A stretch of 64,000 nt of DNA. Source: Spisula solida (taxonomy: Eukaryota; Mollusca; Bivalvia; Venerida; Mactridae). Positions within the stretch are counted from its first letter, which is position 1, and the number at the start of each line of letters is the position of its first letter. The DNA lies in the NCBI GenBank assembly GCA_947247005.1, contig OX365954.1, positions 3,178,001-3,242,000 of the forward strand, written 5' to 3'. Below the pieces are notes generated by a model. The model saw only the letters and a list, made by a program, of their open reading frames with translations. It had not been told where the DNA came from and made no database searches. Both the position numbers and the translations under genes were made by a program. This document shows positions 28,090 through 63,620 of this stretch, one piece after another.

Positions 28090-28965
28090 ACGACATGCAT
28101 AACTATATAACTTTTGACCTCTAAGTGACCTTGACCTTTAAGCTAGGGATCTAGGTCTTCTGCAAAAAAAATACATTAAAAAAAAACAAAAACAAAAATA
28201 GAAATTGTTTTTTTTTAACGCACCTTCTTGATGTTGTAAACATTTCTACCAAGTATTATAAATATCCAAAAAGAAATGACAAAGTTACAGAGCGGACATT
28301 ATTTTGTGCCTTTCAACCTTTGACCTCCAAGTGTGACCTTGACCTTTGAGCTAGGGACCTAGGTCTTGCGCATGACACACCGTCTTAATGTGGTGAACAT
28401 TAGTACCAAGCCATTTTAAAATCCAGCATGAAACAACAAAGTTACAGAGCGGACACAACTTTCATGACTATATGACCTTTGACCTGTAAGTGTGACCTTT
28501 ACCTTTGAGCTAGGGACCTGGGTCTTGTGCATGACACACCCTCTATATGTGGTGAACATTTGTACCAATTATTATTAACATCCAATAAGAAATGACAAAG
28601 TTACAGAGCGGACACGATTTGTGCCTTTTAACCTTTGACCTCAAATTGTGACCTTGACCTTTGAGCTAGGGACATGGTTCTTGCACATGACACACCGTCT
28701 TGATGTGGTGAACATTTGTACCAATCCATTTTAAAATCCAGCAAGAAACGACAAAGTTACAGTGCGGACACGACTTTCATAACTATATGACCTTTGACCT
28801 ATAAGTGTGACCTTGACCTTTGAGCTAGGGACCTGGGTCTTGGGCATGACACACTGTCTTGATGTAGTGAACTTTTGTACCAATCCATTTTAAAATTCAA
28901 CAAGAAACGACAAAGTTACAGAGCAGGTAGAATTTCGCTTACAGACCAACAGACCGACCGTCCGA
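28090..28965 (+). repeat. 'tgacctttgacct' tandem repeat, ~160 bp, 5 units
   Basis: Units carry 'tgtgaccttgacctttgagc', 'tagggacct', 'gacacaccgtcttgatgtgg' and 'acgacaaagttacagagcgg'. The last unit runs into 'gaccaacagaccgaccgtcc', the short tract typical of pearl-like tails. No closing hairpin is seen. Confidence 0.85.
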
Positions 28966-33609: not shown

Positions 33610-34911
33610 TGAACAAGAGCTGTCCACGAACAGCACGCTCCACTATTCGCAGCTTCATGCTAGGATAGTACAATCATTATATATTCAAAACAAAATGCTT
33701 CATAACAGCAGCATTTCCCTCTGCTCTGTAGAGGGTTGGGCTTCTAAGTAAAAAAAGGGGCATAATTTGGACAAATTATGCAGGACCGTTACCTATTCAT
33801 GTGTAGGTCCCCTTGGTCATGAAGGTAAACAAATAAGCATTTCTTAGTTCAAAAGGGGGTGTTATTTCAACAAAATGCTAAATAGTCATCTTCTCTTGTT
33901 TATGGGTTGGGGTCATGATGGTGAACAAGTATGCAAAGTATCAAAGCAATATGTTAATGCACTTTGAAGACATTAGAGGTTAAAAACCTGTACCTAAACT
34001 TTAACATTTGCATTTTCAAGTCCAACAGGGGGCATAATTTCAACAAAATGCTTGATAGAGTTACCTACCCCTGTGTATGGGTTGGGGTCATGATGGAGAA
34101 CAAGTATGCATAGCAATATGTGAATCCACTTTGAAAATGTTAGAGGTGAAAAAACCTGTACCTAAACTTTAACATGTGCATTTACATGTCCAACAGGGGG
34201 CATGATTTCAACAAAATGCTTGATAGAGTTACCTACCCCTGTGTATGGGTTGGGGTCATGATGGAGAACAAGTATGCATAGCAATATGTGAATCCACTTT
34301 GAAAATGTTAGAGGTGAAAAAACCTGTACCTAAACTTTAACATTTGCATTTACATGTCCAACAGGGGGCATGATTTCAACAAAATGCTTGATAGAGTTAC
34401 CTACCCCTGTGTATGGGTTGGGGTCATGATGGAGAACAAGTATGCATAGCAATATGTGAATCCACTTTGAAAATGTTAGAGGTGAAAAAACCTGTACCTA
34501 AACTTTAACATGTGCATTTACATGTCCAACAGGGGGCATGATTTCAACAAAATGCTTGATAGAGTTACCTACCCCTGTGTATGGGTTGGGGTCATGATGG
34601 AGAACAAGTATGCATAGCAATATGTGAATCCACTTTGAAAATGTTAGAGGTGAAAAAACCTGTACCTAAACTTTAACATTTGCATTTACATGTCCAACAG
34701 GGGGCATGATTTCAACAAAATGCTTGATAGAGTTACCTACCCCTGTGTATGGGTTGGGGTCATGATGGAGAACAAGTATGCATAGCAATATGTGAATCCA
34801 CTTTGAAAATGTTAGAGGTGAAAAAACCTGTACCTAAACTTTAACATTTGCATTTACATGTCCAACAGGGGGCATGATTTCAACAAAATGCTTGATAGAG
34901 TTACCTATGTT
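33610..34911 (+). repeat. 168-bp pearl-like tandem array
   Basis: 'aacagggggcat' occurs at 34024, 34192, 34360, 34528, 34696 and 34864, exactly 168 bp apart; the units are almost identical. Diverged first units run from about 33690. The 5' domain 'acaagagctgtccacgaaca' plus 'gcacgctccactattcg' at 33613 is the usual start of a mollusc pearl-like element. The array stops abruptly at 34911 without a tract or hairpin. Confidence 0.92.
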
Positions 34912-39122: not shown

Positions 39123-39266
39123 CATTATTTTTCATAAAGCCTATGGCTTTCACATGTACAATTAGCATTTCAGTCATAGTACTGGAATGAGCGCTTTTTA
39201 AAGACCCGAGAAAAAGTGCAGTGCACCGTATAGTATATATCACGTGTGCACCTGTAATCAATCATA
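39123..39266 (+). repeat. left inverted terminal repeat of the DIRS-like element
   Basis: Starts CATTATTTTTCATAAAGCC. From 39152 to 39266 it is the exact reverse complement of 43729-43843. It contains 'gcgctttttaaag', 'tagtatatatcacgtgtgca' (a TATA-like stretch with an E-box CACGTG), so an inward promoter is possible. Confidence 0.92.
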
Positions 39267-42200
39267 TTTAGTCTAGCGCTTGAATGAGCAAGACGTTCGT
39301 GCGACAATGTCGCGTGGTAATTTTTGGTTTTTGCGGCGAAATTACGACTTTCGTTGGCAGTTTACATTCGAGGAAGGTAATTGCGATGAATGTATTGTAT
39401 TTTTCAATCGTTATGAGTTTTTTATCTTCCGTTATTATCCTTTATTGTTGAACTAAGAAGACTTTTTTGGGAACCGGAAGCTAGTTTGTAAAACAGCTTA
39501 TGTCACGATAATGATTACTTTGGCAGAGTTTTGAGCCGGTTTTGTCCCATGTCTTCTATTTTCATTGCTAGTTTGTGATAGTAAAACATGGTTATTATAA
39601 AAATATGTCCTCTGGACAATTTTATAGACGAATTACGTCTTTGTGCATAGTACGTAGTACATGCTTTTCGGATGTTAAAATTCGGACAAATTTGTTCCGT
39701 TATCCGAGTGAACGCGTCTTAGGACGCCGATTATAATGCAATGACCTAGTCTTTTGATTAGAGGAAATGTTTATTTACATGCCAAAAGTGTTGGCTTTAT
39801 AACATTAGTATGATATTGTCTGTGGTAAGTTTTGAGTTTAACTGACTGTTAGGCAGTTATCAGTTTTAGATGAATTGTGACTGTATATGGGCTCTGTCTA
39901 ACAGAGTTTTGTGAAAAGCCTGAGAGCACATGCTCATTTGATATGAAGGTTACGTTTTTGTACCTTTTATGAGAATATGAGAAATTAGCTTTATTAGCAG
40001 TTACAGAAAGTCACTTTGAGTCTGACACGGTTTATTTGATAATATAACAGTGTGTTATGAGTACATAACCTTAGATGGAGACCATTAGTATATCGGATAT
40101 TTATTCAGAGATTATTACATGGGCAGTGCTTATTTTATATTTAGAAAGGTACTAAGAGTGTTATATTTCATGACAAACTCAGTTTGCGTGTAATTATTTG
40201 ATAGTTGAGAAGAAGTTTCGTGATTAAGTAAGACCTGTTTTGAAGCATAACGTAGAGTTCTTTGACATTTGTCAGGGGAGAACGTGTTTGATGCGTGTTT
40301 ATGCTATTTTTAGAATCCATATGAACAAGCATTTAGGTTGCTTTTTGTCTGCTATGGGTATGATTATATATGAATTTATTAATTTGCATGCTTATGCAAT
40401 CAAGATATATTTTATGTAAATTTAGATTGGTTATCCTATGAGATAAATCAATATTTGGTAGTTTGGATAGTTGCATTGAGTTGGAGTAATTCTAAGTATT
40501 TGAAATCAGGTATAACGTATGGCACTGAGTTATTCTGACCAGAGACTTATGCAGTTTGTCATTTGCTTTTGTGGTGTGTCGTCAATCTATTAGATTTGAC
40601 ATAAGTGTGTATTTGGTTCTTTTTTGAATTAATATATTTTTGGTCATGGAACATGATTTTGGTATTTGAGGGAAGTTATATTTATATGACACTGTTTTTA
40701 AGTGACATGCAGGATGGTTTAGCATGTTTATGATTATAATTATATTTTGATTTCGCTATGAGTCTGTCAAAGGCATCAAATAGTGAGTATTTGGTGTTGA
40801 TTGAATAAGTATTTTGTGAGTTAAAAGGTTTCATTTGAATAGAGATATCAAGTTCATGTTTATGAATTGTCTTTAATGATTACTTTATTTATACGGCAGT
40901 ATTATGATGGCTTATATTTATATATGATACTGAATAACTCAGATGTTTGGTGGAGAATTGGTTACAAGAGGATAGATGTTCATTTTGATGAATTGGTACA
41001 TTTGGATACAGGTTGAACTTATTTAGATGTATCTGCTTTTAGGTATTCATGTCATGAATTTTGGAAATATATGTTGCTGTATTCTTAAATTTAGCCATAT
41101 ATCAATTATACTTATGATATACTTGAAATGAGTGACTCAGTACGAATTACTTATAGACTTATTACCCAATGCTTTTTGCATTCTGAACATTATCACTGTA
41201 GCAACAAGTGTTGTGTATTTATGACCGATGAGAGTACAAATTTTTAGTTGTTTATATTCATTTATTTGTCATGTGATGATAGGATGTTGTCAGTCTTTAG
41301 TATAAAATCTACTATAATCTAGTATTTTTACTATAGTTCCTCTTGAGAAGGGATATATATATATTATGTAACCAGTATCCCTGGATATATGTTTATAAGT
41401 GAGACTGTTTTGGAGTATCATGTATTTATAAATACACTGGATACGTGTAGTTTTACGATGCATAATATTTTAACAGACTTATTTATGCACATCTACATGA
41501 GTAAATCTTTTCAGACCTTATGTCTGAACTTCAGGTTTTGGGTGTACCAAAGAGTATGTTTTGCTGTACTTTCCCAATATAATGGTCCTTTTCTGAGGAT
41601 TTCAGGGTTTTCAGGATTTTAACTTTCACCTATGCTTTAGTGATTATCAACTATAAACTTTACGGAGTGAAGCTGATATTTGAAAATGAGTGATTGATTA
41701 TCAACTATAAACTTTTATTTGAAAATGACTTTTACAGTAAAGTTAAGCAGGATTGTTTAGTCATTGTTCATAGTTGGAAAGGAAGGGTTGAATTTGCATA
41801 CATTTGTACTTCTGTTAAGCAACCTGGGAATTTGAATTAAAAGTTATTTTTTAGAAACCTATTGGTAATAGTTGTAAAATATTAACAACTTGTTTACTGT
41901 CTTAATGTAGTGTTGTTTTTATGGTTGTTTGTTTTATATGTGCTGCTAGTATTAATTAGTTAACATGGATCCAGTTTAGCTTTTTGGAAGCGCTTATATG
42001 TTTGCTTTATTATATATGTTTCTTTGGAAACTCCCTAGCTTATTATACATGTTTATTGGGAAACTAGCTTTTTGTGTCCAGGAACATTTCAAGCATAGAT
42101 AATATTTCATAGTTTCGGCTAATGGTAATGTATATATAGTGGTTGTTACTTTTTTATATGTAATTATATGAGTATTTGAGGTACTTTATTCTTTAAGTTT

Positions 42201-43403
42201 TTATTAAGAGTAATTATAGACGTATCTGTTACATTTGTGTGTTATTGTAATGGATTTTATTTCTTTTCGAAGAAACAGGGTTAGTGTTACCTGAGCGGAA
42301 TTTGGTTTAGATATTGACTTTACTTATTTTAATGAGGAATTTAGGGATAATAATGGCCTTTGTCATTTATTAGTGGTATCTTTTATCATAGTCATTTAAG
42401 ATGGTCATGATACAAATATGGCAGTATTGTGTCTTTGCAGAATGATCTATTTATATATATTATATATGGAAAGTCTGTAACAGTACTATTATTTTCTTAT
42501 ATTCCTATAAAGGTTTTATTTACTTTAGTTTTATTATTTATATTACATATGACATGTATATCATGTTTTAATACGTGATTTCTTTATTGTCAATGAATAG
42601 CACTTTAGCTGCATAGCAGTTTTCTTTACGGACCATATTGTATATTTTTATGATTTAAGAAAGGTTTGATGTCATTTCGTTAAGGATGTATTGGAGTGTT
42701 ATAAGTTTATGATCTTGACATAAACTGGGCTTTGATAGAATTGTATTTGCCGTATACAAAGAGTGGTTATTGCTTGTGTCTTGTATATATGTTAAGAATA
42801 GAATTATAGGTGTTTATGTAATAGTTATTTATTAACCACTTTTTCAATTTGAAAACGATACTCTGATTCACTGATGGTCTGAAGTTGATGAACTATTTAT
42901 TATATCATTTAAATTTAATTTATTATTTTGTTAAAATCTATAAGCTTTAGCTTTTGACAGTTAACAACTGGTTGTTGATTTGCAGGTTTAGAATGTTTAT
43001 TTGAGGATTTCTGTATCGGCATTGTTCTTTTGAACTATCAAAGTGTTATAAGGTTCATTTTTTGTTACTTAATATTTTTAATGGTGTTTGTTTTGTTGAG
43101 GAATCCTTTTTTCAAGTCACCTCATGAGTTCATGTTTAAATTTAATTTGGTATTTTCAAGTTTATATAAAGTATTTTCCTTTGAGATATATTTGAATTTC
43201 AATTATTGACATAATAGAGGTTTTATTACCTGTGGAGAAGTATTCTAACTCTATGATGGTATTAATATATATTGTTCATGTATATATTATTGTTACTCTT
43301 GATTTACAAGGTGTCTAGTCTGTTTTACATTATTGTATTACACTTTTATTTTTAAGAGGGTTTTTGTTTTAATGGCAATATGTTTTGTTGCCCTACTTTG
43401 AAG
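39267..43403 (+). other. body of the DIRS-like element, T+G-rich, non-coding
   Basis: Across about 4.1 kb the plus strand has clearly more T than A and more G than C (for example 29 T, 11 A, 14 G, 6 C in 40561-40620). No frame is longer than 77 codons. The first ~120 bp (39270-39385) is richer in G+C and ends GAGGAAG|GTAATT, which would suit a splice donor of a plus-strand transcript. Confidence 0.6.
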
Positions 43404-43519
43404 ATGCTAATTGTACATGTGAAAGCCATAGGCTTTATGAAAAATAATGTTCCCTCATCCAAGCTTTAGTGCAGGATGAGGGTCATTATTGGAATAAAGC
43501 CGGAGGCTGAGCATGTACA
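43404..43519. repeat. internal complementary region (circle-junction copy)
   Basis: 43404-43449 is the exact reverse complement of 39123-39168, and 43446-43519 the exact reverse complement of 43835-43908. The two meet at a shared AATG (43446-43449). The joined ends make a 110-bp imperfect palindrome with 'cctcatccaagctttagtgc' plus 'aggatgagg' at its centre. Confidence 0.92.
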
Positions 43520-43728
43520 TACCCTCCCTTTGTGTCAGATTATCATTATATTTAAAGTGCATATTTGTATACATACGGTATATTTATTTTATGATGTAAT
43601 GTTATAATTTGTGTTGTGATATTATGTGTATCTTTCAGCCTTTTATGCTTTGCCCTCCCTAGTACATGCTTATCACTTAGATTAGAGATTAGCCTATTGT
43701 TTAGGGCGACAAAACTTTGGCTTTGAAT

Positions 43729-43908
43729 TATGATTGATTACAGGTGCACACGTGATATATACTATACGGTGCACTGCACTTTTTCTCGGGTCTTTAAAAA
43801 GCGCTCATTCCAGTACTATGACTGAAATGCTAATTGTACATGCTCAGCCTCCGGCTTTATTCCAATAATGACCCTCATCCTGCACTAAAGCTTGGATGAG
43901 GGAACATT
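43729..43908 (-). repeat. right inverted terminal repeat of the DIRS-like element, with hairpin extension
   Basis: 43729-43843 mirrors the left repeat exactly. The outer part carries 'accctcatcctgcactaaag' plus 'cttggatgaggg', a hairpin absent from the left end, and finishes GGAACATT. Confidence 0.92.
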
Positions 43909-55760: not shown

Positions 55761-56273
55761 TGTCTATATAATGTTATTTTAATATTCAAACAATATGACA
55801 CAAGTGATATTAATCAGAATTGAATTACTTTACATTTTGATATAAATTTTATTGACGTACGCCAACAAATAAACTCACCAGCGGAACAGTGACATTACTT
55901 TTGGATCTACCCACGTATTGATAACTATTTCAACAACTACAGAACTGGATTTCATAGTCTGGTTCCCGATCTTTACAATCTACGCAGTAAAGGTCTGGTG
56001 TCATCCAAATAAAATGGCAGCCCCATGGTAAGATTCAAAATGGCGGAAGTAGTGTTGTATATAGTAAAAATATTATTTTTACAAATATATAATGGTGTGT
56101 TGGTGTCGTTTTAACAAAACTTTGTATTTAGATGAAATAAAATGTGATCTTCGTGGGACATAGTTAATATTGGCACGACACCACTGATATGCACTAAAAT
56201 TCGTTGATAAAAATAATGAAAAAACCTTTATAGCAATGCACATACTACATATAAATGACAAATAATATTGTGT

Positions 56274-56346
56274 GCCCGTTTAGCTCAATCGGTTGAGCGT
56301 CTGCCTTGTAAACACGATACTGTTGGTTCGAGCCCTGTATGGTCTG
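56274..56346 (+). other. tRNA-like sequence, Thr(UGU)-like, copy 1
   Basis: 'gcccgtttagctcaatcggt' plus 'tgagcg' gives a good A box and pairing D arm; the anticodon-loop analogue is 'cttgtaa'; 'ggttcgagccc' is close to the B-box consensus. Anticodon and acceptor stems fail to pair, so it is not a functional tRNA. Identical copies at 58885-58957 and 61496-61568. Confidence 0.7.
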
Positions 56347-56499
56347 TGTTTTACCTATATAAAATCTATAGCATTTTAATTTTTTTATGGCCTTCAGTTG
56401 TTTTGCTATATTCCCGTTTTCAAAAACATTTTATTGCAGTGTCATATTTCTTAAAACACAAGTATAAATTCATGGGAAATATTTTTTGGAAAAAAGAAA

Positions 56500-56573
56500 G
56501 CGGTCGATGCGGGATTCGAACCTGTACCATTGTGACTACTAGCCAAACGCTCTACCGATTGAGCTAAGCGGGC
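56500..56573 (-). other. tRNA-like sequence, opposite strand, copy 1
   Basis: Read on the minus strand: 'gcccgcttagctcaatcggt' plus 'agagcg', then 'ggttcgaatcc', exact A- and B-box consensus. The anticodon and acceptor stems are broken. It faces the plus-strand tRNA-like sequence 154 bp away. Identical copies at 59111-59184 and 61722-61795. Confidence 0.7.
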
Positions 56574-57504
56574 AATTGATAAATCAAATATTTATATGCA
56601 CTATATATATGCTGCTACAAAATATTTACATAATTTAATTAACGTTATTTAGTACATATTTGTGGTGTTGTTTTGATGAAACCTGTGAAGTTGGATAGGT
56701 TGTACATTTTTCAAGTGACATACGAAATCTTATCGAAACGACACCAAAAGAACATACATTTTGGGGAGATTATTTAAAAATGCCTATATAAACTTATGTA
56801 CACCCGCCATCTTGTTTTACCAGTAGTAGAATCCATTTTAATTGGATGATGCCGGACCTAATCTAATGGAATGTAAGATTGGGGAACGGGAACCAGACTA
56901 TGGATTTCTTTGCTTGTATGTATTGTAAATAACTTGACACTGGACTCAAAAATTCACGAAGCCATCAATAAAGCATATTCTCTGTCTTGTACAAGTTCTC
57001 ACAAACAAAATATACTGCTGAGCACTACTATTTCCATGCGGTCTCAATTTCATTATTACTACGTAGGTCTCAGCCTCATGCCAAGCCCAGACCTTACATT
57101 TTCAATAGGGTTAAAACCCCGAGACTAAAACACCATCTTGAAGTTTGTTATCTGTTAGAATACGTTATAAGTGACTGTTTCAGAAAATAACGGAGGTTAA
57201 CATGTTTTAATGCAAATTAGGAGCTTAAATGTTTATAATGTTCCGTGATAACATTACAGTAACAGTACGAAAACTATGGCATTTGGAGGTTTCATTATCG
57301 ATTCTTACCTATGTATTATTCTCACGTACCGCCATAAATGATTCTTCAACGGCTCGGTTCGGAAAAAATAAAATAATTTCAAAAAATAAAATGTTTTTCC
57401 TACAGATCAACCCCAATTTTTTTCACCATGTTACTAGAACCACATAATTAATTTGTTTTGGTTTAATTTAAGCCTTGAGTCTGAAATCAAACAAGCAATA
57501 CTAT

Positions 57505-57760
57505 TGTTATAGCTTGGAGAATTTGACATGATCCTGACCTTTATGCATGAATATATTTCAAGGTTCTTGCATTGCATATATAAATTCCTGCGAGCAGATT
57601 GTGCAATTAATCGGTCCTTTAGATTAGTGTTGGTAAAAACTATAACACCTTGAGAATCTTTGTAATAATTCTCGATCATGAAAACATACAATCGGGGTTA
57701 TAAATATAGAGAATATATCAGCTGTCAAATTATGAGAATCGTGTCAAAATTCTCTGTGCT
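57505..57760 (+). mobile_element. MITE copy of the 20690 family (copy 1 of 3)
   Basis: 'ggagaatttgacatgatcct', 'cctttagattagtgttgg', 'agaatatatcagctgtcaaa' and the end 'tcaaaattctctg'. Repeated at 60116-60371 and 62727-62982. Confidence 0.75.
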
Positions 57761-57814
57761 ACATTTCGCTGGCTGAGAATTAGAAGGTAATAAGTACTAC
57801 TTACTACGTTATAA

Positions 57815-58030
57815 GACTCATGTATATTTGAAATATGCATCTCATGGCGCTTCTTATGAGCCTATTTTCATGAAAATCGGAAGTAAAGTAAATTAGTAAA
57901 GAGTAGTTTTCAGACAGTTTTTCTTGTTCTCTCAAAATATTGGTTTTGTACTCCTATATTTATATATATACGACCCTCTTATTCTAAGCCAGCGATTTGT
58001 AAAACAGAGTTATGGTGTTTTGAATATAAA
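57815..58030 (+). repeat. dispersed repeat related inversely to 5870-6070
   Basis: 'gcttcttatgagcctatttt' and 'gtaaagagtagttttcagac' are diverged reverse complements of 'aaaataggctcataagaagc' and the 'tgtcagaaaattactcttta' region. Copies at +2,611 and +5,222. Confidence 0.7.
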
Positions 58031-58223
58031 TGTCACTTTGCCTCTTGGCAAGCCAGTGAGTTATAGTTACACATTTTCATGGGATTTTAAATATCATGTC
58101 TCCATTATAACAATCCTCTTATTCTGTTTGCATGGCCAGACTCACTCACAGTATTTAGTTCATGATGTAATCCAGATCAAAGTATGTTTATTCTTATTCA
58201 AAGAATTTTACTCCAGTTTTTTG

Positions 58224-58400
58224 TGTCGCCTAAAAAGGCGACATAATTAGGTGTTACTTTGGGGTCGGCTGCTGCGGCGGCACAAATTGCTTGTCCGGAG
58301 CATAACTTTGTCACTTTAAGTTCAAATGACTCAAGATTTGGTATGCATGTTTCTTGCAATAAGCCAAAGTGCAGTGCGCAAGAACCATAACTCTCCCTCT
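58224..58400 (+). mobile_element. 5' domain and first core unit of a pearl-like element (copy 1)
   Basis: 'gtcgcctaaaaaggcgac' is a perfect 7-bp-stem hairpin, followed by 'ttggggtcggctgctgcggc' and the core start 'ttgtccggagcataactttg'. It is truncated by the tandem-duplication junction here and at 60835-61011, but continues in the third copy. Confidence 0.7.
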
Positions 58401-58404
58401 CCCT

Positions 58405-61015
58405 TATGACACAAGTGATATTAATCAGAATTGAATTACTTTACATTTTGATATAAATTTTATTGACGTACGCCAACAAATAAACTCACCAGCGGAACAG
58501 TGACATTACTTTTGGATCTACCCACGTATTGATAACTATTTCAACAACTACAGAACTGGATTTCATAGTCTGGTTCCCGATCTTTACAATCTACGCAGTA
58601 AAGGTCTGGTGTCATCCAAATAAAATGGCAGCCCCATGGTAAGATTCAAAATGGCGGAAGTAGTGTTGTATATAGTAAAAATATTATTTTTACAAATATA
58701 TAATGGTGTGTTGGTGTCGTTTTAACAAAACTTTGTATTTAGATGAAATAAAATGTGATCTTCGTGGGACATAGTTAATATTGGCACGACACCACTGATA
58801 TGCACTAAAATTCGTTGATAAAAATAATGAAAAAACCTTTATAGCAATGCACATACTACATATAAATGACAAATAATATTGTGTGCCCGTTTAGCTCAAT
58901 CGGTTGAGCGTCTGCCTTGTAAACACGATACTGTTGGTTCGAGCCCTGTATGGTCTGTGTTTTACCTATATAAAATCTATAGCATTTTAATTTTTTTATG
59001 GCCTTCAGTTGTTTTGCTATATTCCCGTTTTCAAAAACATTTTATTGCAGTGTCATATTTCTTAAAACACAAGTATAAATTCATGGGAAATATTTTTTGG
59101 AAAAAAGAAAGCGGTCGATGCGGGATTCGAACCTGTACCATTGTGACTACTAGCCAAACGCTCTACCGATTGAGCTAAGCGGGCAATTGATAAATCAAAT
59201 ATTTATATGCACTATATATATGCTGCTACAAAATATTTACATAATTTAATTAACGTTATTTAGTACATATTTGTGGTGTTGTTTTGATGAAACCTGTGAA
59301 GTTGGATAGGTTGTACATTTTTCAAGTGACATACGAAATCTTATCGAAACGACACCAAAAGAACATACATTTTGGGGAGATTATTTAAAAATGCCTATAT
59401 AAACTTATGTACACCCGCCATCTTGTTTTACCAGTAGTAGAATCCATTTTAATTGGATGATGCCGGACCTAATCTAATGGAATGTAAGATTGGGGAACGG
59501 GAACCAGACTATGGATTTCTTTGCTTGTATGTATTGTAAATAACTTGACACTGGACTCAAAAATTCACGAAGCCATCAATAAAGCATATTCTCTGTCTTG
59601 TACAAGTTCTCACAAACAAAATATACTGCTGAGCACTACTATTTCCATGCGGTCTCAATTTCATTATTACTACGTAGGTCTCAGCCTCATGCCAAGCCCA
59701 GACCTTACATTTTCAATAGGGTTAAAACCCCGAGACTAAAACACTATCTTGAAGTTTGTTATCTGTTAGAATACGTTATAAGTGACTGTTTCAGAAAATA
59801 ACGGAGGTTAACATGTTTTAATGCAAATTAGGAGCTTAAATGTTTATAATGTTCCGTGATAACATTACAGTAACAGTACGAAAACTATGGCATTTGGAGG
59901 TTTCATTATCGATTCTTACCTATGTATTATTCTCACGTACCGCCATAAATGATTCTTCAACGGCTCGGTTCGGAAAAAATAAAATAATTTCAAAAAATAA
60001 AATGTTTTTCCTACAGATCAACCCCAATTTTTTTCACCATGTTACTAGAACCACATAATTAATTTGTTTTGGTTTAATTTAAGCCTTGAGTCTGAAATCA
60101 AACAAGCAATACTATTGTTATAGCTTGGAGAATTTGACATGATCCTGACCTTTATGCATGAATATATTTCAAGGTTCTTGCATTGCATATATAAATTCCT
60201 GCGAGCAGATTGTGCAATTAATCGGTCCTTTAGATTAGTGTTGGTAAAAACTATAACACCTTGAGAATCTTTGTAATAATTCTCGATCATGAAAACATAC
60301 AATCGGGGTTATAAATATAGAGAATATATCAGCTGTCAAATTATGAGAATCGTGTCAAAATTCTCTGTGCTACATTTCGCTGGCTGAGAATTAGAAGGTA
60401 ATAAGTACTACTTACTACGTTATAAGACTCATGTATATTTGAAATATGCATCTCATGGCGCTTCTTATGAGCCTATTTTCATGAAAATCGGAAGTAAAGT
60501 AAATTAGTAAAGAGTAGTTTTCAGACAGTTTTTCTTGTTCTCTCAAAATATTGGTTTTGTACTCCTATATTTATATATATACGACCCTCTTATTCTAAGC
60601 CAGCGATTTGTAAAACAGAGTTATGGTGTTTTGAATATAAATGTCACTTTGCCTCTTGGCAAGCCAGTGAGTTATAGTTACACATTTTCATGGGATTTTA
60701 AATATCATGTCTCCATTATAACAATCCTCTTATTCTGTTTGCATGGCCAGACTCACTCACAGTATTTAGTTCATGATGTAATCCAGATCAAAGTATGTTT
60801 ATTCTTATTCAAAGAATTTTACTCCAGTTTTTTGTGTCGCCTAAAAAGGCGACATAATTAGGTGTTACTTTGGGGTCGGCTGCTGCGGCGGCACAAATTG
60901 CTTGTCCGGAGCATAACTTTGTCACTTTAAGTTCAAATGACTCAAGATTTGGTATGCATGTTTCTTGCAATAAGCCAAAGTGCAGTGCGCAAGAACCATA
61001 ACTCTCCCTCTCCCT
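58405..61015 (+). repeat. second copy of the 2,611-bp unit
   Basis: Every landmark of copy 1 recurs at +2,611: mariner right terminal repeat (about 58498-58526), inverted-repeat element, both tRNA-like sequences, MITE and pearl-like 5' domain. Confidence 0.95.
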
Positions 61016-63620
61016 TATGACACAAGTGATATTAATCAGAATTGAATTACTTTACATTTTGATATAAATTTTATTGACGTACGCCAACAAATAAACTCAC
61101 CAGCGGAACAGTGACATTACTTTTGGATCTACCCACGTATTGATAACTATTTCAACAACTACAGAACTGGATTTCATAGTCTGGTTCCCGATCTTTACAA
61201 TCTACGCAGTAAAGGTCTGGTGTCATCCAAATAAAATGGCAGCCCCATGGTAAGATTCAAAATGGCGGAAGTAGTGTTGTATATAGTAAAAATATTATTT
61301 TTACAAATATATAATGGTGTGTTGGTGTCGTTTTAACAAAACTTTGTATTTAGATGAAATAAAATGTGATCTTCGTGGGACATAGTTAATATTGGCACGA
61401 CACCACTGATATGCACTAAAATTCGTTGATAAAAATAATGAAAAAACCTTTATAGCAATGCACATACTACATATAAATGACAAATAATATTGTGTGCCCG
61501 TTTAGCTCAATCGGTTGAGCGTCTGCCTTGTAAACACGATACTGTTGGTTCGAGCCCTGTATGGTCTGTGTTTTACCTATATAAAATCTATAGCATTTTA
61601 ATTTTTTTATGGCCTTCAGTTGTTTTGCTATATTCCCGTTTTCAAAAACATTTTATTGCAGTGTCATATTTCTTAAAACACAAGTATAAATTCATGGGAA
61701 ATATTTTTTGGAAAAAAGAAAGCGGTCGATGCGGGATTCGAACCTGTACCATTGTGACTACTAGCCAAACGCTCTACCGATTGAGCTAAGCGGGCAATTG
61801 ATAAATCAAATATTTATATGCACTATATATATGCTGCTACAAAATATTTACATAATTTAATTAACGTTATTTAGTACATATTTGTGGTGTTGTTTTGATG
61901 AAACCTGTGAAGTTGGATAGGTTGTACATTTTTCAAGTGACATACGAAATCTTATCGAAACGACACCAAAAGAACATACATTTTGGGGAGATTATTTAAA
62001 AATGCCTATATAAACTTATGTACACCCGCCATCTTGTTTTACCAGTAGTAGAATCCATTTTAATTGGATGATGCCGGACCTAATCTAATGGAATGTAAGA
62101 TTGGGGAACGGGAACCAGACTATGGATTTCTTTGCTTGTATGTATTGTAAATAACTTGACACTGGACTCAAAAATTCACGAAGCCATCAATAAAGCATAT
62201 TCTCTGTCTTGTACAAGTTCTCACAAACAAAATATACTGCTGAGCACTACTATTTCCATGCGGTCTCAATTTCATTATTACTACGTAGGTCTCAGCCTCA
62301 TGCCAAGCCCAGACCTTACATTTTCAATAGGGTTAAAACCCCGAGACTAAAACACTATCTTGAAGTTTGTTATCTGTTAGAATACGTTATAAGTGACTGT
62401 TTCAGAAAATAACGGAGGTTAACATGTTTTAATGCAAATTAGGAGCTTAAATGTTTATAATGTTCCGTGATAACATTACAGTAACAGTACGAAAACTATG
62501 GCATTTGGAGGTTTCATTATCGATTCTTACCTATGTATTATTCTCACGTACCGCCATAAATGATTCTTCAACGGCTCGGTTCGGAAAAAATAAAATAATT
62601 TCAAAAAATAAAATGTTTTTCCTACAGATCAACCCCAATTTTTTTCACCATGTTACTAGAACCACATAATTAATTTGTTTTGGTTTAATTTAAGCCTTGA
62701 GTCTGAAATCAAACAAGCAATACTATTGTTATAGCTTGGAGAATTTGACATGATCCTGACCTTTATGCATGAATATATTTCAAGGTTCTTGCATTGCATA
62801 TATAAATTCCTGCGAGCAGATTGTGCAATTAATCGGTCCTTTAGATTAGTGTTGGTAAAAACTATAACACCTTGAGAATCTTTGTAATAATTCTCGATCA
62901 TGAAAACATACAATCGGGGTTATAAATATAGAGAATATATCAGCTGTCAAATTATGAGAATCGTGTCAAAATTCTCTGTGCTACATTTCGCTGGCTGAGA
63001 ATTAGAAGGTAATAAGTACTACTTACTACGTTATAAGACTCATGTATATTTGAAATATGCATCTCATGGCGCTTCTTATGAGCCTATTTTCATGAAAATC
63101 GGAAGTAAAGTAAATTAGTAAAGAGTAGTTTTCAGACAGTTTTTCTTGTTCTCTCAAAATATTGGTTTTGTACTCCTATATTTATATATATACGACCCTC
63201 TTATTCTAAGCCAGCGATTTGTAAAACAGAGTTATGGTGTTTTGAATATAAATGTCACTTTGCCTCTTGGCAAGCCAGTGAGTTATAGTTACACATTTTC
63301 ATGGGATTTTAAATATCATGTCTCCATTATAACAATCCTCTTATTCTGTTTGCATGGCCAGACTCACTCACAGTATTTAGTTCATGATGTAATCCAGATC
63401 AAAGTATGTTTATTCTTATTCAAAGAATTTTACTCCAGTTTTTTGTGTCGCCTAAAAAGGCGACATAATTAGGTGTTACTTTGGGGTCGGCTGCTGCGGC
63501 GGCACAAATTGCTTGTCCGGAGCATAACTTTGTCACTTTAAGTTCAAATGACTCAAGATTTGGTATGCATGTTTCTTGCAATAAGCCAAAGTGCAGTGCG
63601 CAAGAACCATAACTCTCCCT
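61016..63620 (+). repeat. third copy of the 2,611-bp unit, continuing into the original right flank
   Basis: Same content at +5,222. Instead of the junction bases it continues after 'aactctccct' into 'tgtgttgttttttaattatt', the uninterrupted pearl-like core, so this copy marks the ancestral right border. Confidence 0.95.

Follow-up and report, generated by a model that had tools for sequence, protein, structure and literature searches.

The DIRS1-like retrotransposons described by Piednoel in 2011 (PMC3266345) and the DIRS-1 element of Dictyostelium (PMC5633606) have inverted terminal repeats (ITR) with a conserved and a divergent part, a right extension, and abutting internal complementary regions (ICR) that overlap in AAT; their termini read ATT and their empty sites show no target duplication. 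We analyzed a stretch of 64,000 nucleotides from Spisula solida (contig OX365954.1, positions 3,178,001 to 3,242,000; hereafter the window), which contains a 4.8-kb element that shares all of these features. The element differs in having a 4.1-kb non-coding, strand-biased core in which no genes were found, and a slightly shorter right extension, approximately 38 nt as compared to 46–49 nt (PMC3266345). It is very probably a copy of a high-copy, gene-free DIRS1-like family, with reverse transcriptase (RT) and tyrosine recombinase (YR) likely supplied in trans by coding relatives with similar ends. This reading is based on the complete DIRS termini and ICR, the lack of identifiable genes, the near-identical copies, the ATT borders, the empty paralogues of an insertion site, and coding relatives in which the ICR or right end shows 83–95% identity.

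DIRS1-like elements with such termini are already known, molluscs included (PMC3266345). The five mollusc elements in Table 3 of Piednoel 2011 have a divergent ITR of 30–36, a conserved ITR of 31–141 and a right extension of 46–49 nt, and an ICR of 39–46 plus 67–88 nt, with borders that read ATT in four elements and AAT in one (PMC3266345). For the element in the window, the corresponding sizes are ~29, 117, ~38 and 46 plus 74 nt, with ATT borders, and the termini are in or near the size range of the DIRS1-like elements of Aplysia and Lottia (PMC3266345). Another gene-free derivative of a tyrosine-recombinase retrotransposon is SIRE, which is a short piece of VIPER; however, VIPER has split direct repeats and neither ITR nor ICR (PMC6681497). 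The LARD and TRIM derivatives of long terminal repeat (LTR) retrotransposons are likewise gene-free and presumed to use the enzymes of other elements (PMC8498967), and TRIMs occur in bivalves (PMC6934838). They carry LTRs in place of the ITR and ICR of the gene-free element. LTR elements use a DDE integrase, with target duplication, and not a tyrosine recombinase.

In the window copy, the conserved parts of the two ITRs (39153–39269 and 43726–43842) are complementary at 116 of 117 positions, 114 of which form one unbroken run, with the sole mismatch at 39267. The ICR at 43404–43519 (116 nt) consists of the reverse complement of 39123–39168 followed by that of 43835–43908, and matches the outer ends at 46/46 positions on the left and 74/74 on the right, the two halves sharing the four nucleotides AATG. 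An origin of this match by chance is practically excluded. The right end is approximately 38 nt longer than the left; this right extension (43871–43908) is complementary to the right ICR only, and the segment 43843–43908 forms a hairpin (−14.4 kcal/mol, z −5.1). Folding of the ICR as single-stranded DNA is much stronger than that of shuffled sequences (z −8.7). These results bear out a previous sequence-only reading of the stretch, which had noted inverted repeats identical over ~114 bp, an internal region that matches the two outer ends placed head to tail, and a right repeat longer by a hairpin. It had also placed CATT at both borders, of which only the ATT is common to the copies: at the base ahead of ATTATTTTTCATA (position 39123), 13 of the 19 complete copies have C, 5 have T and 1 has A. 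Since this base varies between copies, it belongs to the flank, the element extends over 39124–43908 (4.8 kb), and the border triplet is ATT. The element is thus divided as follows.

39124..39152, + strand: left terminus, diverged from the right one; begins with ATT and has a small AAAGCC/GGCTTT hairpin; exact reverse complement of the ICR, with 0 variable columns in 19 copies.
39153..39269, + strand: left ITR, conserved part; complementary to 43726–43842 at 116/117 positions.
39270..43403, + strand: non-coding core, of which the first 431 nt are a leader of somewhat more even composition; no Pfam match, strand skew, no tblastn match.
43404..43519, + strand: ICR, reverse complement of the left end plus reverse complement of the right end, overlapping in AAT(G); 120 exact genome matches to the junction 30-mer.
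43520..43725, + strand: spacer that separates the ICR from the right repeat; 206 columns, 3 of them informative.
43726..43842, − strand: right ITR, conserved part; complementary to the left ITR.
43843..43870, − strand: right terminus, diverged from the left one; exact to the ICR, its border with the extension placed by eye.
43871..43908, − strand: right extension with a CCTCATCC/GGATGAGG hairpin, last letters ATT; identified by its match to the ICR and its folding; the coding cousins L073 and L074 carry a similar sequence.

The lack of coding capacity claimed by the sequence-only reading was upheld. No open reading frame (ORF) of at least 80 aa starts inside the core of the window copy according to the ORF listing, and a Pfam search of its six read-through frames, with X at stops, gave no match at E 1. 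Across the 19 complete copies, the longest ATG-initiated ORF per copy is 64–116 aa. A tblastn search of the core with the gag, pol and YR proteins of two coding DIRS elements of the same genome, L074 and L052, gave nothing below E 0.1, whereas the proteins of these two elements match each other at E 1e-12 to 1e-156. Three-base periodicity was not relied on as a test for coding remnants, since intact DIRS ORFs that lie in shifting frames also score low over the whole length. Of the genes typical of a DIRS1-like element, namely gag, RT/RNase H, YR and often a methyltransferase, none was found in the element, which is therefore classed as a gene-free derivative and not as an autonomous DIRS1-like member.

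The family was surveyed in the host assembly (932 Mb, 36 contigs). The 30-nt sequence across the ICR junction occurs exactly 120 times (58 + 62), as compared to 0 for the reversed control pattern; positions were listed for 100 of the 120 places. In a first search for copies, the best 40 of 469 candidates were scored. Inspection of ~3 kb around exact ICRs at each of 30 loci showed the same core beside the ICR, bar small indels, in 28 of them, the other two being truncated. Full-length analysis covered 21 copies, namely 20 loci of ~7 kb and the window copy, and 19 of these are complete with both exact ends and distinct flanks. The pairwise divergence of the 19 complete copies is on average 1.41% (range 0.27–2.28%), and the ICR is equal to the copy's own ends in 18 of them. 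Variants shared between the 19 copies were observed in 0 of 445 columns in the ends and ICR, as compared to 136 of 4340 columns elsewhere (p=3e-6). With the ICR left out, because the copies had been chosen on it, shared variants numbered 0 in 329 end columns versus 136 in 4340 (p=1e-4), and single-copy variants 8 in 329 versus 248 in 4340 (p=0.008). The best reading of these sequences is that the family is young, large and high-copy. A scan of viral contigs with two end patterns gave 0 matches.

Two irregularities were observed within the family. A unit of ~112 bp near element positions 566–677 seems to be duplicated in 3 of the 19 copies (L032, L037 and L042), which is perhaps the mark of a sub-lineage. 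At L028 (G000:C2:47565878-47566118), two pieces of ICR and right end stand in tandem, an arrangement that might result if the end of a copy had received an insertion of, or recombined with, a second copy.

ATT stands at both borders of all 19 complete copies, whose right end was located by an exact string. The base preceding ATT is C or T in 18 of the 19 copies and TT follows in 16; the target is mostly C/T-ATT-TT. For one insertion, L032, which is located within a dispersed repeat, the joined flanks match the right flank of copy L033 with 86.8% identity over 76 columns, unbroken at the junction and with a single CATT. In a genome-wide search with the joined flanks of L032, limited to the best 40 of 1650 first-look candidates, 38 of the 40 scored places cross the junction at 77–82% identity and the other two are the site's own flanks. 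The empty paralogues of this site carry a single ATT, showing insertion at a core of 3 bp and no additional duplication of the target. One ATT in the circle junction, deduced from the ICR, plus one in the target would yield ATT at both borders, which is the outcome predicted by conservative recombination in the DIRS model (PMC3266345).

Coding DIRS1-like relatives were identified in the same genome. A search with the YR domain family gave 124 matches, and 20 representatives were inspected over 1.7 kb below the YR. Two of these, L069 and L070, have an ICR and a right end like those of the window element, with ICR identities of 92% over 104 nt and 90% over 114 nt, respectively; the ICR of L069 is the nearest one beside an open YR. 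No element-like ICR or right end was found in the 1.7 kb below any of the other 18 representatives, at least four of which (L054, L055, L063 and L066) possess their own inverted repeat resembling an ICR. Weak matches of 24–27 nt to the core or spacer in 3 of the 18 flanks were taken as chance. The element of L070, named L074, is 5641 bp long and represents a complete DIRS1-like element with coding capacity in three open ORFs: one of 457 aa in the gag position, one of 686 aa with an RT domain (RVT_1, PF00078; E 2.2e-20) and a weak PCIF1_WW match, and one of 351 aa with the YR domain (PF00589; E 5e-8). Its ICR is exact to its own ends, its ITR of 143 bp is 99.3% identical, and its borders are ATT. 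Compared to the gene-free element, L074 shows 91% identity over 47 nt at the left end, 89% over 141 nt in the ICR and 88% over 89 nt at the right end, whereas its inner ITR, leader and core are unrelated as judged by blastn. In L073, the element of L069, pieces of RT are found in broken ORFs and the YR is open.

A search with the YR of L074 gave 11 full-length matches at 50–100% identity, the next full-length matches being at most 38% identical, with shorter pieces in between. An unbroken YR at least 98% like that of L074 is present at 3 places, as compared to the 120 junctions of the gene-free family. Five further YRs (L075–L079), which are 52–60% identical to that of L074, all have an element-like ICR at 84–88% identity, and four of them have a right end like that of the element at 83–95%. 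Altogether, an element-like ICR (84–92%) was found by 7 of 7 tested YRs with 52–100% identity to the L074 YR, and a right end in 6 of 7. The presence beside all seven related YRs and beside none of the 18 others suggests that the element-like ICR goes with related YRs. A search with the ICR of L073 as query, in which the best 40 of 328 candidates were scored, gave 41 matches: L073 itself, a 99% match next to a YR that is broken, 38 matches of 88% where the gene-free family is located, and a partial one of 91%.

Another coding element, L052 (G000:C15:9977500-9985500), was considered as a partner because its YR lies 3 kb from an ICR junction. This candidate was rejected: it is an intact DIRS of a different family, with RT, YR and its own ICR, nested at an AATT site of a gene-free copy. 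Elsewhere, four YR matches spaced 4.8 kb apart (G000:C5:9076723-9092136) are suggestive of a single DIRS family arrayed head to tail.

The sequence-only reading had proposed a non-autonomous DIRS-like element, and this is supported by the same-ended copies, the empty paralogues and the coding relatives. Other copies with the same end structure were expected, and 19 of the 21 examined carry both exact ends while a 20th reaches both with changes; empty sites without duplication were likewise expected, and were seen as empty paralogues of the L032 insertion. The expectation of autonomous relatives sharing these ends held in part, since relatives with RT and YR and similar ends are present in the same genome, but identical ends were not found.

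Several points weigh against the proposal that a gene-free family is moved in trans. The search for a coding copy with identical ends, over the best 40 of 469 and 40 of 328 candidates and the 100 of 120 junction places that were listed, yielded none, the closest being 84–95% identical, and the inner ITR, leader and core of the element share nothing detectable with L074, L073 or L052 by blastn and tblastn. The RT region was read in L073, where the ORFs are broken, in L074 and in the unrelated L052; for L075–L079, the data cover the YR match plus the sequence below, and L079 shows no right end. The base-level proof of an empty site comes from 1 of 19 sites, L032, matched among the flanks of fetched copies; the flanks of L047 also align across, but with gaps at the junction. 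As for the copies, those chosen by an exact ICR are biased towards young and intact ones, and as the right ends were found by an exact 15-mer, their identity is partly by construction. Copy L045 reaches both ends with changes, at 92–94% identity over most of its length and with the exact right-end string absent, and is an older copy; L043 is without its left part, and the ICR of L034 has 2 mismatches to its right end. Finally, transcript, cDNA, circle and new insertion are steps that we infer beyond the DNA anatomy.

An alternative explanation is that the element is a once-autonomous DIRS with decayed or hypermutated genes, the copies being relics of an earlier autonomous phase. The resemblance of the ends to those of coding DIRS elements is in line with this, as is the composition of the core, the + (sense) strand of which is poor in C and rich in T (A 0.28, C 0.109, G 0.19, T 0.418), as after C-to-T change. 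The GC skew of the core is 0.27, as compared to at most 0.14 in 255 overlapping flanking segments of equal length. Third codon positions in the intact pol genes of L074 and L052 are similar to the core (A 0.33–0.34, C 0.11, G 0.17–0.19, T 0.37–0.39), those of DIRS gag less so (C 0.16–0.18), and the 3′ non-coding stretch of L074 is unlike it (C 0.157, G 0.165). However, the variation between copies shows no clear difference between C>T and G>A, neither for singletons (22/477 versus 30/825, p=0.38) nor for shared variants (p=0.42), and the balance of forward and back changes among singletons does not differ between strands (p=0.81). Shared changes, with the minority base counted as new, lean non-significantly towards the bias (p=0.11), with a C>T:T>C ratio of 3.5, near what the core composition requires, versus a G>A:A>G ratio of 1.5. 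Neither the six read-through frames nor the tblastn searches gave any trace of genes at the thresholds above. In addition, the same non-coding core was found by the ICR in 28 of 30 loci and 19 full copies are 0.3–2.3% apart, which shows that the gene-free form itself has multiplied. We therefore regard decay of an autonomous family as improbable.

Inverted termini with ATT at both borders would look the same if the element were a DNA transposon, or a large miniature inverted-repeat transposable element, mobilized by a transposase of the cut-and-paste type that duplicates the 3 bp ATT. This would leave unexplained why the ICR, with exactly one ATT, links the two unequal outer ends head to tail, is matched to the copy's own ends in 18 of 19 copies, and has counterparts, like the ends themselves, beside RT and YR genes, which makes such an origin highly improbable, although no search aimed at a DDE-transposase element with these termini was made. 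Recombination or segmental duplication involving larger blocks, rather than transposition, could be envisaged as the main route of spread in host DNA that is rich in tandem and dispersed repeats, but the flanks of the 19 complete copies diverge right outside the same two borders, at ATT in mostly C/T-ATT-TT, and the L032 site is present empty elsewhere; this process has a very small chance of accounting for the family.

A gene-free family mobilized in trans would use the ICR in the manner proposed for DIRS-1, the sense RNA of which lacks part of both repeats, with the ICR thought to template the missing ends, and for which circles have been observed in one mutant (PMC5633606). In the gene-free family, an incomplete sense RNA running from ITR to ITR would be copied into cDNA by the RT of the partner. 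The ICR would serve as splint and template, restoring both outer ends and joining them head to tail, and the resulting circle, with one ATT at its junction, would be recombined by the partner's YR with the ATT of a mostly C/T-ATT-TT target. Work by Malicki et al. in NAR in 2020 is said to have found the ICR essential for DIRS-1 and its cDNA single-stranded. The needs in cis would be the termini and the ICR, and the 4.1-kb core would drift.

A more speculative idea, which we consider unlikely, is that the core yields a 4-kb non-coding RNA shaped by selection or by a single-stranded stage, and that the family is a satellite of the whole DIRS clade which out-competes coding elements for their enzymes. 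It is suggested by an RNA that would be poor in C and nearly without sense poly(A) signals, by ends that would be widely accepted, and by the 120 junctions as compared to 3 YR copies of the L074 type. The window copy has one AATAAA on the sense strand (43493, inside the ICR) versus 26 on the other strand, and a second sense AATAAA is found in 6 of the 19 copies. The signal at 43493 was dropped as a candidate RNA end, since an RNA stopping there loses the spacer.

If the family is indeed moved in trans, it represents a natural deletion experiment, in which approximately 150–180 bp per end and a 116-nt ICR would be enough in cis for DIRS transposition, and DIRS1-type tyrosine-recombinase retrotransposons would, like LTR elements, have gene-free parasites. 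A gene-free element is also a ready reporter for testing the ICR circle model. A literature search, with Repbase entries, supplements and most subscription journals outside its scope, yielded no description of a DIRS1-like element that is devoid of genes yet has an intact ICR, in agreement with the prior impression that non-coding DIRS derivatives with a perfect complementary region are little described. As far as these searches show, a DIRS1-like family that is gene-free and high-copy, has kept its ICR intact, and is accompanied by coding relatives and empty sites within a single genome is new.

Other parts of the window contain repeats of different kinds. At 56268–63472, a 2611-bp unit is present in three tandem copies with identical ORFs, and each copy has a weak tRNA-like match on the − strand. 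The tandem repeats of about 160 bp in the host genome may resemble those of bivalve molluscs. Within the window, numerous tandem arrays of ~155–168-bp units were observed, at 3–1890, 28221–28924, 33850–34907 and other positions, and copy L047 of the gene-free element lies in an array related to these.

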